A DNA stretch of 64,000 nt from Lysobacter sp. 5GHs7-4 (GTDB lineage: Bacteria; Pseudomonadota; Gammaproteobacteria; Xanthomonadales; Xanthomonadaceae), in assembly GCF_021284765.1 (NCBI RefSeq), contig NZ_CP089924.1:1072001-1136000 (forward strand). The letters are read 5' to 3'. Below, piece by piece: positions 13,266 through 21,098 of the stretch; the stretch's first letter is position 1; each line of letters begins with the position of its first letter. The notes below the pieces were generated by a model. The model made no database searches. It was given only the letters and a program-made list of their open reading frames with translations, and was not told where the DNA came from. The translations under genes were made by a program, and so were the position numbers.

Positions 13266-14564
13266 TTAGGACTGAGCGCCTTGGCGCTCGCGCTCGATCG
13301 CGCGCCAGCCGATGTCGTGACGGTGGAATTCGCCGTGCCAGGAGATGCCGGCCACCGCTTCATAGGCGCGGTGCTGGGCATCGGCCACCGTCTCCCCCAG
13401 CGCGCACACGCACAGCACACGACCGCCGGCGGTGACCACCTGGCCGTCGACCAGCTTGGTACCGGCATGGAACACCCTGCTGTCCTCGGGCATCGGCACG
13501 TCCCAGGTGCTGATGGGATCGCCGGTGCGCGGCGTGTCGGGATAGTGCTCGGCGGCCATCACCACGCCCAGCGAGGGACGCGGATCCCACTGCGCCTGGG
13601 TCTCGTGCAGGCGGCCGTCGATCGCGGAGTCGACCAGGTCCAGCAGGTCCGATTGCAGGCGCATCATCACCGGCTGGGTTTCCGGATCGCCGAAGCGCAC
13701 GTTGAACTCGATCACCTTGGGCGCGCCGCTCTTGTCGATCATCAGACCGGCGTAGAGAAAACCCGTGAAGGGGATGCCGTCGGCGATCATGCCGCGTACG
13801 GTCGGCTCGACCACCTCGCGCATCACACGCGCGTGCACCTCCGGAGTGACGACCGGGGCGGGCGAGTACGCGCCCATGCCGCCGGTGTTGGGGCCGGTGT
13901 CGCCGTCATGGACGCGCTTGTGGTCCTGCGAGGTCGCCATCGGCAGGGCGGTGCGGCCGTCGACCATGGAAATGAAGCTGGCTTCCTCGCCGTCGAGGAA
14001 CTCCTCGATCACCACGCGCGCGCCGGCGGCGCCGAAGGCGTAGTCGGCCAGCATGTCGGTGATCGCGGCCTCGGCTTCGGCCAGGCTCATCGCGACGATC
14101 ACGCCCTTGCCGGCGGCCAGGCCATCGGCCTTGATGACGATGGGCGCACCCTTCTCGCGCACGTACTCCAACGCCTCTTCGACGTGAGTGTGCACGGCGT
14201 AGTGCGCGGTAGGGATCTTGTGACGGGCCAGGAAATCCTTGGCGTAGGCCTTGCTGCCTTCGAGCTGGGCCGCCGCGGCGGTGGGCCCGAAGATGCGCAG
14301 GCCGGCGGCGCGGAAGCGGTCGACCACGCCGGCGACCAGCGGCGCCTCGGGGCCGACCACGGTCACCGCGACGTTCTCGGCCGCGACCAGCGCCAGCAGG
14401 CCGTCGATGTCGGTGGCGGCCACCGCGACATTGCGGCAGCCGGCTTCGGTGGCGGTGCCGGCGTTGCCCGGGGCGACCAGGACCTCGTCGATGCGCGGGG
14501 ACTGGGCCAGCTTCCAGGCCAGCGCGTGTTCGCGCCCGCCGGACCCGATGACGAGGACCTTCAT
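13266..14564 (-). CDS. purD: Phosphoribosylamine-glycine ligase (stand-alone copy)
   Basis: Catalyses the second step of purine synthesis: phosphoribosylamine + glycine + ATP to glycinamide ribonucleotide. It has 432 residues, the normal length. It starts [19 protein letters not shown] (N-domain), has the ATP-grasp core with [52 protein letters not shown], and the metal site [15 protein letters not shown] at 14564 has GGAG eight bases upstream and is preferred over an N-extended frame. A second, fused purD lies at 17663-19441 after purH. This unfused copy keeps its own terminator and is probably the soluble housekeeping enzyme. Confidence 0.96.
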
Positions 14565-16273: not shown

Positions 16274-16335
16274 GGGCGGGTCGCGCTTTGGAGGATCTGC
16301 GCTGTGCGCGGACGGCGCGCTTTCTTTGGCGCTTC

Positions 16336-16615
16336 CTGTAGGAGCGGCGTGAGCCGCGAGCGTGAGTTCCGGCTATTGCGCTTCTCAGGTTCTGATGGCC
16401 TCCAAGCTCCGGCGTCGCGCTTTAGCTCCCTCCTTTAACAAAGGGTGAAGCCGTGCGCTTACGAACCGCAGGTTCGTGTACGGCTGAACGCCGGCAGGCT
16501 ATGCCTGCTGGCCGGGCGGGTTGGGGAGGATTTGCTGTTGCCGTTGTTTCGCTTCTTCTGACCGAAGGTCAAAGGCCTCCGCCTGCTGCGCATGCAGGTC
16601 ACTTTCTCTTGCTCG
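16336..16615 (+). repeat. Composite repeat, copy B1 (truncated)
   Basis: A diverged, truncated copy of the 532-984 element. It opens with the CTGTAGGAGCGGCGTGAGCCGC palindrome and stops inside the ACTTTCTCTTG hairpin arm, where copy B2 begins. Between AACAAAGG and GGGTTGGGGAGG it carries a module of about 70 bases (roughly 16444-16518) holding two further palindromes (ACGAACC/GGTTCGT and CCGGCAGG/CCTGCTGG). The same module is found in copy C. Confidence 0.8.
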
Positions 16616-16621
16616 CGCTCT

Positions 16622-17085
<464 letters not shown>

Positions 17086-17097
17086 TTGGCTTCAACT

Positions 17098-17559
17098 TCA
17101 ACCGACGGTGTCGAAGGCCGGGTGATAGCGTACGGTGCCGGCTGGGATCGTGCCGTCGAACGGCAAGGCCATGAAGTACTCCGGCGGTAGGCCGGGGTAG
17201 TGCAGCGCGGTGTGGTGGCGGAAGCCGAAGCGGGTGTAGTAGGCCGGGTCGCCGGCCACCACGCAGCCTTGGGCGCGCAGGGCGCGCAGGGCGCGCAGGC
17301 GCGCCAGGCCGGTGTCGATCAGGGCGCGGCCGATGCCGTGTCCCTGTTCGGTCGGTGCCACCGCGACCGGGCCCAGGCCGTACCAGGCGCCGGCGGCATC
17401 GTCGATGCGGATCGGCGAAAACGCGATGTATCCCAGCAGCGCGTCGTCGCGCATGGCTACCAGAGACAGCGTCAAGGCATCGGCGGCGCGCAAGGCGTCG
17501 ACGATGCGGTGTTCGGTCTGCTGGCTGTGCGGGTGGTCGGCGAACGCGGCCGCGACCAC
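17098..17559 (-). CDS. GNAT family N-acetyltransferase, start codon uncertain
   Basis: An acetyl-CoA-dependent acyltransferase of 153 residues counted from GTG 17559. Family features: the central beta strand LGYIAFSPIRI, motif A GLGPVAVAPTEQGHGIGRALIDTGL (the Q/R-x-x-G-x-G/A pyrophosphate loop), and AYYTRFGFRHHTALHYPGLPPEYFMAL, typical of the PA3944/YhbS-like subgroup. Homology seems to begin earlier: the frame continues upstream as TLRDERSGDHDAIRAVV, the usual GNAT N-terminus, but no ATG, GTG or TTG occurs there before a stop at 17635. The gene either uses a rare start near 17614 or makes a truncated product. It follows the fused purD on the same strand. Confidence 0.82.
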   Translation of the reverse strand: MVAAAFADHPHSQQTEHRIVDALRAADALTLSLVAMRDDALLGYIAFSPIRIDDAAGAWYGLGPVAVAPTEQGHGIGRALIDTGLARLRALRALRAQGCVVAGDPAYYTRFGFRHHTALHYPGLPPEYFMALPFDGTIPAGTVRYHPAFDTVG

Positions 17560-17662
17560 GGCGCGGATCGCGTCGTGGTCGCCGGAACGCTCGTCGCGGA
17601 GGGTCGAGGTTTTTATCGGGGCGATCCGTGTGCGTTAGCCGCAAATATGCCGCGACGCGGCC

Positions 17663-19441
17663 TCAGGTGCCAACACGTTCGCGTTCGATCGCGCGCCAGC
17701 CGATGTCGCCACGGTGGAACATGCCTTCCCAGGCGATTCGGGACACCGCCTGGTGAGCGCTGTCCTGCGCGTCCGCGACGGTGTCGCCCAGGGCGCACAC
17801 ACACAGCACGCGGCCGCCGGCGGTCACCACCTGACCATCGACCAGCTTGGTGCCGCTGTGGAAGACCTTCTGCTCCATACCGGTCGAGATGCCCAACCCC
17901 TGAATGACGTCGCCGCTGCGTGGGGCGTCGGGGTAGTTCGCCGCCGCCATGACCACGCCCAAGGCCGGGCGGGGATTCCAGCGCACGTCGACGGTGTGCA
18001 ACTGCTTGTCCAGGGCGGCTTCGATCAGCTCCAGCAGGTCGGATTGCAGGCGCATCATCATCGGCTGGGCTTCGGGGTCGCCCAAGCGCACATTGAACTC
18101 GATCACCTTGGGTGCGCCGCTCTTGTCGATCATCAGGCCGGCGTAGAGAAAACCCGTGAAGGGGATGCCGTCGGCGATCATGCCGCGCACGGTCGGTTCG
18201 ACCACCTCGCGCATCACCCGCGCATGCACGTGAGGCGTGACCACGGCAGCGGGCGAATAGGCGCCCATGCCGCCGGTATTCGGGCCGGTGTCGCCGTCGA
18301 ACGCGCGCTTATGGTCCTGCGAGGTCGCCAGCGGAAGGGCGGTGCGCCCATCGACCATGGAGATGAAGCTGGCCTCTTCGCCATCGAGGAATTCTTCGAT
18401 CACCACGCGCGCGCCGGCTGCACCGAACGCGTTGCCGGACAGCGCGTCGGTGACCGCGGCCTCGGCCTCGGCCAGGCTCGTCGCGACGATCACGCCCTTG
18501 CCGGCGGCCAGGCCGTCGGCCTTGATGACGATGGGAGCACCCTTGTGTCGGACGTACGCCAGCGCCTCGTCGAGGTGCGTATGCACGGCATAGTCCGCCG
18601 TCGGGATCTGGTGACGGGTCAGGAAATCCTTGGCGTACGCCTTGCTGCCCTCCAGGCGAGCCGCCGCCGCGCTGGGCCCGAAGACGCGCAGATTGGCGGT
18701 GCGGAAGCGATCGGCCAGGCCGGCAACCAGCGGGCCTTCCGGGCCGATCACGGTGAGGCCGATGTTCTCGCGCCGGGCCAGCTGCAGCAGGCCTTCGGTA
18801 TCCGTCGCCTGAACGTCGACATTGCGGCATTTGCGCTCCGTCGCCGTACCCGCGTTGCCGGGCGCCACGATGACCTCGGCCACGCGGCGCGACTGCGCCA
18901 GCTTCCAGGCCAGCGCGTGCTCGCGGCCCCCGGAGCCGATCACCAGCACCTTGACGACCGACCGTGCGACCGCTGGCTGGATTTGAGCGGCGGCCGCGGG
19001 TGCGCTGCGGCTGTCGCGGAACCAGTAAGCGAACCACAGCGCCGGGCTGTACAGGACCATCGCGCCAGCGGCAATGATCAGTGCGTACGATGCGGAGATT
19101 TTGCGAAACGCGAATATCTGGCTGTTGTAGGCCTGGATGATCGCGACCATGCCGATCAGCACCAGCACGAAGATCGCCAGTTCCGAACCCAGGAACAGCC
19201 GCCAGCGTTCGTCGCTCTGCATGGCGCGGGCATGGTCCTTGCTGAACCTGCTGCGCGCGATCTCGGCGCTGGCATAGATCAGGCTGATGCCCAGGACGAT
19301 GCGCAGGCCGTTGGAGTTGGGCAGCGCCATTTGTATGAAGCCAACGACGATTCCGCACAGCAGCATCGCCGCGGCGAATATGCCTATGTACTTCAGCATG
19401 GACGCAGAGGCCGCGGTATTGGAACGTGAGTACTTGCTCAT
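17663..19441 (-). CDS. purD: Membrane-anchored PurD: four-helix N-terminal module fused to phosphoribosylamine-glycine ligase
   Basis: A 592-residue single open frame. Residues 1 to about 160 are a membrane module with four hydrophobic stretches (about 17-39, 45-58, 85-104, 115-140) and RFSKDHARAMQSDERWRLFLGS between the second and third, resembling small ABZJ_00895-type membrane proteins. From residue 163 onward ([19 protein letters not shown]) it is a complete PurD, strongly similar along its whole length to copy 1. The ATP-grasp motifs [17 protein letters not shown] and [21 protein letters not shown] are intact; the metal motif reads EFNVRLGDPEAQ. The codon aligned with the Met1 of copy 1 is GTC (18953-18955), so PurD cannot start separately there. 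ATG 19441 is preferred to TTG 19471. It follows purH by 82 bases, the usual place for purD. Confidence 0.9.
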   Translation of the reverse strand: MSKYSRSNTAASASMLKYIGIFAAAMLLCGIVVGFIQMALPNSNGLRIVLGISLIYASAEIARSRFSKDHARAMQSDERWRLFLGSELAIFVLVLIGMVAIIQAYNSQIFAFRKISASYALIIAAGAMVLYSPALWFAYWFRDSRSAPAAAAQIQPAVARSVVKVLVIGSGGREHALAWKLAQSRRVAEVIVAPGNAGTATERKCRNVDVQATDTEGLLQLARRENIGLTVIGPEGPLVAGLADRFRTANLRVFGPSAAAARLEGSKAYAKDFLTRHQIPTADYAVHTHLDEALAYVRHKGAPIVIKADGLAAGKGVIVATSLAEAEAAVTDALSGNAFGAAGARVVIEEFLDGEEASFISMVDGRTALPLATSQDHKRAFDGDTGPNTGGMGAYSPAAVVTPHVHARVMREVVEPTVRGMIADGIPFTGFLYAGLMIDKSGAPKVIEFNVRLGDPEAQPMMMRLQSDLLELIEAALDKQLHTVDVRWNPRPALGVVMAAANYPDAPRSGDVIQGLGISTGMEQKVFHSGTKLVDGQVVTAGGRVLCVCALGDTVADAQDSAHQAVSRIAWEGMFHRGDIGWRAIERERVGT

Positions 19442-19523
19442 GGGGCCTGCTGCAGGACTTAGGGGCGGCAAGTACGAGTGCCGCGCCCGCCAGGATCGGG
19501 GCGCGGCTGTCGTGCCGATAACG

Positions 19524-21098
19524 TCAGTGGCGGAAGTGACGCACGCCGGTGAACACCATCGCCAGGCCGTGCTCGTCGGCGGCGGCGATCACTTCGCTGT
19601 CGCGCATCGAGCCGCCGGGCTGGATCACCGCGCGCACGCCGGCGGCGGCGGCCGCGTCGATGCCGTCGCGGAACGGGAAGAAGGCGTCGGAGGCCATCAC
19701 CGAGCCCGGCACGACCAGGCCGGCTTCCTCGGCCTTGAGCGCGGCAATCTTGGCCGAGACCACGCGGCTCATCTGGCCGGCGCCGATGCCGATGCTGCGG
19801 TGGTCGCGGGCGTAGACGATGGCGTTGGACTTGACGAACTTGGCGATGCGCCAGGCGAACAGCAGATCGCTCAGCTGCGCGTCGGTGGGCGCGAGCTTGC
19901 TGACCACCTTGAGCTCGTCGCGGCCGACTTCGCGGATGTCGCTGCTCTGCATCAGCAGGCCCGAGCCGACGCGCTTGACGTCGACATTGTTGCGGCCGTC
20001 GCCGTGCGGGATGCGCAGCACGCGCACGTTGGCCTTCTTGGCGCAGTAGGCCAGCGCGGCCTCGTCGTATTCCGGCGCGATCAGCACCTCGACGAACTGG
20101 CGGTCGAGAATGGCCTTGGCGGTGGCGGCGTCGAGCTTGGTGTTGAAGGCGAGGATGCCGCCGAAGGCCGAGGTCGGGTCGGTGGCGTAGGCCAGCTCGT
20201 AGGCGTCGCCGCAGGCCACGCCTTCGGCCACGCCGCAGGGGTTGGCGTGCTTGACGATCACGCAGGCCGGACGCTCGAACTGGCGCACGCATTCCCAGGC
20301 CGCGTCGGCGTCGGCGAGGTTGTTGTAGCTAAGCTCCTTGCCCTGCAGCTGGGTGAAGGTGGCCAGGGTGCCCGGCACCGGGTACAGGTCGCGGTAGAAC
20401 GCGCCCTGCTGGTGCGGGTTTTCGCCGTAGCGCAGGTCCATCACCTTGACGAAGTTGCTGTGCTGCTGCGACGGGAACTGCTGGCTGCGCGCGCCGTCGG
20501 CGTCCAGCGAGGACAGGTAGTTGGCGATGCAGGCGTCGTACTGGGCGACGCGGTTGAACGCGGCCACCGACAGGGCGAAGCGGGTGGGCGCCGACAGCGT
20601 GCCGGCGTTGGCCTGCAGCTCCGCGATCAGGTCCGCGTACTGGGCCGGATCGGTGGCCACCGCGACGCGGGCGAAGTTCTTGGCCGCCGAGCGCAGCATG
20701 GCCGGGCCGCCGATGTCGATGTTCTCGACGATGTCCTCGAACGAGCTGTCGGCTTTGGCCGAGACCTGCTCGAACGGATACAGGTTCAGCACCAGCAGGT
20801 CGATCGCGCCGATGCCGTGTTCGGCCATCACCGCGTCGTCGATGCCGGCGCGACCGAGCAGGCCGCCGTGCACGATCGGGTGCAGGGTCTTGACCCGGCC
20901 GTCCATCATTTCCGGAAAACCGGTGACTTCGGAGACGTCGCGCACGGCCAGGCCGGCGTCGCGGATGGCCTTGGCGGTGCCGCCGGTGGACAGCAGTTCC
21001 ACGCCTTGCGCGGACAGGGCACGGGCGAGGTCGAGCAGGCCGCTCTTGTCGGAAACGGAGAGCAGCGCCCGGCGGACGGGCAAACGATCGGAGGTCAT
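19524..21098 (-). CDS. purH: Bifunctional AICAR transformylase / IMP cyclohydrolase
   Basis: Catalyses the last two steps of IMP synthesis. The 524 residues contain the N-terminal MGS-like cyclohydrolase domain ([52 protein letters not shown]) and the C-terminal AICAR transformylase domain with [25 protein letters not shown], the Lys-His catalytic pair, [12 protein letters not shown] and the final [11 protein letters not shown]. It is first in a purH-purD(fusion)-GNAT set on the minus strand. No clear ribosome-binding site precedes ATG 21098, but the N-terminus matches homologues. Confidence 0.97.

Follow-up and report, generated by a model that had tools for sequence, protein, structure and literature searches.

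The enzymes of de novo purine synthesis are generally regarded as cytosolic. PurD (GAR synthetase) is described near its partners in two settings, through covalent association in the vertebrate trifunctional GART and through transient association in Escherichia coli, for which kinetics suggested PurF-PurD channelling, and a stable complex was sought and none found (PMC10912719). Both are multi-enzyme assemblies, and the portion of that source available to us describes no membrane anchor on PurD. PurD also has a high rank for weak contacts among E. coli enzymes (PMC12583656), and the accessible part of that text mentions neither PurF nor membranes. CvpA (PF02674), a small multi-helix membrane protein in purine company, offers a further comparison, but it is not fused to PurF. 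No report of a membrane-anchored PurD was found in limited literature listings, judged by titles and abstract openings.

The locus described here lies in a 64,000-nucleotide stretch of the Lysobacter sp. 5GHs7-4 genome (the window) and joins a complete PurD to an N-terminal membrane module. We consider it probable that the gene codes for a GAR synthetase tethered to the inner membrane. Translation would begin at the module ATG, four helices would insert into the inner membrane with both ends cytosolic, a short flexible linker would keep the complete PurD domain at the inner membrane face, and the tethered PurD would ligate glycine to phosphoribosylamine with ATP. The window's strain would have acquired a fused second copy beside purH, in addition to its own soluble PurD. 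If these predictions hold, this is ordinary chemistry in an unexpected place. The fusion also provides a first enzymatic context for the ABZJ_00895 family.

The fused gene (17663..19441, minus strand) is a single uninterrupted frame of 592 codons from ATG 19441 to the stop at 17663, coding for an ABZJ_00895-type membrane module plus PurD (P0001; the genome is G000), and so confirms the in-frame fusion claimed by an earlier sequence-only reading. Its PurD domain occupies residues 163-592 (17666..18955, minus strand); in a profile search TIGR00877 covers residues 164-586 with 559 bits (cut-off 288), and the N, ATP-grasp, and C domains are present over the whole length, which places the protein in the PurD / GAR synthetase family. 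An AlphaFold2 model (mean pLDDT 78.6) has four helices, a low-confidence linker, and the PurD fold, with the linker and some PurD loops below pLDDT 50. The 15 best Foldseek ranks are all GAR synthetases, and the match to E. coli PurD (1gso) scores 579 bits. The whole three-domain enzyme is present, as in PurD itself, whereas listed GAR synthetase chains have 391-476 residues and the fused protein adds an N-terminal module and linker of 162 residues. The GC content of the module by codon position (51/45/84%) is a coding signature, as expected of a translated stretch in a G+C-rich genome.

The membrane module comprises residues 1-146 (19004..19441, minus strand), with four predicted helices. In the model, predicted membrane helix 1 spans residues 16-39 (19325..19396), predicted helix 2 residues 44-70 (19232..19312), and predicted membrane helices 3 and 4 residues 76-106 (19124..19216) and 118-145 (19007..19090), all on the minus strand. 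The four hydrophobic segments of the sequence-only reading reappear as four hydropathy peaks and these four helices, and its suggestion of membrane attachment is supported by prediction as probable. Its proposed likeness to ABZJ_00895-type proteins is also borne out, since NF038216 (ABZJ_00895_fam) covers residues 16-141 with 50.7 bits against a cut-off of 33, matching profile positions 1-126 of 134; unlike that family, whose 134-position model has no enzyme, the module here is joined to PurD. The linker (residues 146-162; 18956..19006, minus strand) has low model confidence and poor conservation. Charge distribution favors a topology in which both ends of the module are probably in the cytosol (12 K+R in the N-tail, loop 2, and C-tail versus 2 in the other two loops), and the active site would then be in the cytosol with its substrates.

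The architecture is shared by 24 full-length fusions among the best 120 homologues of 7998 scored, and further ones are possible beyond these. The listed fusions have 580-612 residues and align with 98-100% query coverage and 60-68% identity, and with the window's protein they form a set of 25. The 18 members scanned all match purD as well as ABZJ_00895 (E <= 0.01 for NF038216), and hydropathy peaks of at least 1.2 number four in 21 of the 25 and three in the other 4 (P0005, P0015, P0022, and P0023). Mean pairwise identity across the set is 0.40 for the module (2% gaps), 0.19 for the linker (25% gaps), and 0.79 for the PurD part, and the best-kept part of the module is the end of helix 2 and the following loop (residues 61-82; identity 0.51). 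Its recurrence in relatives shows that the design is genuine and conserved, and not the product of a sequencing error. The fused members are mostly from metagenomes or from assemblies outside the genomes sampled below, and their PurD parts fall near or within the Lysobacteraceae. We note that P0043, near the fused clade, carries about 30 residues of residual N-terminal sequence ahead of PurD; it looks like a member of the fused lineage after in-frame loss of the helices, and this seeming loss suggests that the module is not indispensable. Another protein, P0122, seems to be a misassembly that combines a fused PurD with a distant one.

Among the genomes sampled the fusion is rare, as a survey of the kind proposed by the sequence-only reading showed. 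The window's own genome is the only one of 20 searched in the genus with the fused gene, none of the other 19 having it. Across 395 family genomes, for each of which three first-look candidates were scored, 388 have a PurD match at E <= 1e-100 and two (G000 and G063) have the fused form; these two head the matches listed, ordered by score, and none of the remaining family genomes reaches a best E-value of 0. A search with the module only (nine candidates scored per genome) returned the same 2 of 395, and in a draw of 398 genomes from the order it returned the window's genome alone. Four of the five best-scoring unfused PurDs among the family matches listed belong to one genus (g14), in which 10 of 11 genomes have a PurD match and 0 of 11 are fused.

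The strongest argument that the fused form works as an enzyme comes from the second of these genomes, G063. The fused gene is its only PurD match, in an assembly of ~110 contigs tabulated as 100% complete, which leaves a small chance of a second purD in an assembly gap. It is preceded by a good Shine-Dalgarno sequence, AAAGGAATCACC, right before the module ATG, and is located between genes that we take, from their translations, to code for an AGCS-type transporter and an lplT/plsC-like product; a congener, G107, carries an unfused purD at the equivalent locus. The fused protein of Lysobacter sp. 13A (P0023), taken to be that of G063, has a PurD part 90% identical to the G107 PurD, and none of its residues departs from the consensus at columns with at least 97% conservation across rows. 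Activity of the fused form is suggested by this combination of sole copy, canonical PurD, good Shine-Dalgarno, and native locus. A membrane-fixed PurD that is the sole PurD in one species' assembly would make it possible to test directly, by genetics, whether it matters where this step takes place.

The window itself carries two purD copies, as previously claimed, the second being a stand-alone gene (13266..14564, minus strand) 3.1 kb from the fused one. Alignment of the two, a check that the sequence-only reading had put forward, gives 78% protein identity. That reading had also taken the fused copy for the usual purH-purD one, but the stand-alone copy is the native orthologue, 93-96% identical to those of four sister species, and the terminator it placed after this gene did not appear in a scan from 12900 for terminator-like sites. 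The sisters (G011, G012, G013, and G014) share the gene order purH-GNAT-purD-lplT/plsC, these labels being our own assignments from the translations, and in their DNA only 18-24 bases separate purH from GNAT. In the window, what we read from its translation as purH (19524..21098) is located 82 bp upstream of the fused gene on the same strand, and the stretch from about 17601 to 19523 is extra, without counterpart in the four sisters. Relative to these genomes the fused gene is a 1.9-kb addition between purH and the GNAT-like gene, and we infer that it was acquired by transfer. The origin proposed earlier, fusion of two neighboring genes in place, does not fit a stretch missing in four sisters and an architecture present in 24 listed proteins, and is unlikely given that no fused gene was found in 19 of 19 other congeners.

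The DNA of the two copies differs unevenly, with identities of 0.90-0.93 over residues 403-466 (18044..18235, minus strand), 0.84-0.88 over residues 243-402, and 0.64-0.76 at the ends; the fused gene is 0.65-0.83 identical to L013 and L014, and the native gene is 0.74-0.91 identical to L014. The segment of residues 403-466, unusually near native Lysobacter purD, is possibly the trace of an old exchange with the native gene, although natural conservation would explain some of it. In a tree the window's fused PurD stands on a long branch close to other fused PurDs, and AU tests are compatible both with a single fused clade and with a placement of the window's copy with native purDs (p 0.34-0.36). 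At PurD columns with at least 97% conservation across rows, departures were counted for 10 of 73 rows and number 12 in the window's fused copy (e.g., F to L in RFGDPE), 1 in the stand-alone copy, and 0 in P0023 and P0008. Eleven of the 12 departing positions depart in P0003 too, 10 with the same residue. The contrast with the stand-alone copy could mean a changed catalytic activity of the window's fused enzyme, but two other rows have 9 and 10 departures.

These substitutions, the occurrence of a PurD pair (both at E <= 1e-100) in G000 alone among the 388 matching family genomes, and the GNAT gene seemingly without its original start region at the junction are what would be expected if the fused gene were a redundant or decaying extra copy, a transferred passenger of little function with the stand-alone PurD doing the work. 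We consider this unlikely. The frame is open with a GC3 of 84-87%, and the fused form is the sole PurD in the G063 assembly. Moreover, the metagenome-assembled protein P0003 is 97% identical to the window's fused protein, and it appears, with the stand-alone P0040 from a contig of equal length, to repeat the window's pair. Over 429 columns P0001/P0003 and P0002/P0040 each show 97% identity, so recent evolution of the fused PurD domain has been no faster than that of the stand-alone one.

If the fused protein is a tethered GAR synthetase, the tether could bring PurD near PurF, and a local purine-synthesis site is possible. Both G000 and G063 carry cvpA (PF02674) followed by what is presumably purF, recognized by its MCGI start. 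A membrane hand-off site for the unstable phosphoribosylamine, at which tethered PurD would meet PurF encoded with CvpA so that the first two purine steps occur at the inner membrane, is nonetheless a doubtful extension, and is made less likely by a pathogenic E. coli cvpA deletion that grew without added purines and was sensitive to bile salts, as reported in the part of PMC6705877 available to us, a result that speaks against CvpA acting in purine synthesis. The module is also not a CvpA, with no PF02674 match at E <= 1 and no detectable homology by hhalign of a nine-module profile against one CvpA sequence (probability 0.3%). Such a hand-off, if it occurs, would amount to a bacterial equivalent, fixed in the genome, of the transient purine metabolon.

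It is improbable that the module stands apart from the enzyme and that a soluble PurD is made from an internal start, as the 439-aa database entry for the window's gene, P0004, which begins after the module, might suggest. The codon aligned with PurD Met1 is GTC at 18953-18955, as the sequence-only reading had it; a GTG is present two codons later, at codon 165, but has no Shine-Dalgarno match in a simple scan, and the start codon of the P0004 entry is ATC. Across codons 2-172 of the G000 gene, ATG 74, which itself lies within the module, is the sole candidate start preceded by a Shine-Dalgarno-like match, codon 1 not being scored since the scanned DNA began there; the Shine-Dalgarno of the window's fused gene looks weak. 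Three homologues (P0024, P0025, and P0038) have Met at the PurD start column, but 22 of the 25 fused proteins do not, so a start there is not what evolution kept, and the module is conserved in frame. The full-length form of P0004 is not among the matches listed, and a database entry that begins after the module makes the fusion easily missed; this suggests that N-terminal fusions of essential enzymes can go unseen when gene calls begin at the known domain.

A new role, in which the module would keep a transporter- or sensor-like activity and PurD would supply or sense its ligand, is very improbable. In its favor, the loop at residues 61-82 and not the helices is best conserved in the module, ABZJ_00895 appears as a hypothetical protein in the sole paper found, and the AGCS-type transporter gene adjoins the fused gene in G063. 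Against it, that transporter gene is also a neighbor of purD in G107 and G012, where purD is unfused, and so is not tied to the fusion, and at the most conserved columns P0023 and P0008 have canonical PurD residues.

Several further features of the window lie near the fused gene. By-eye comparison with the sisters over 17555-17665 indicates that the GNAT gene seemingly lost its first codons, with the original ATG, to the added stretch and may now start at GTG 17559. In G012 and the window an AGCS-type gene lies between GNAT and purD; none was found in the examined stretches of G011, G013, and G014, and the region around GNAT and purD is variable in this respect. After the AGCS gene, at 16329-16831, are two direct-repeat pairs of ~95-102 nt that are 82-86% alike, one of which has a core, GTAGGAGCGGCGTGAGCCGCGA, that we take to be REP-like. 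Just past the GNAT end, at 17027-17085, is a perfect array of 9.8 copies of the hexamer CAACGG, which is possibly prone to slippage.
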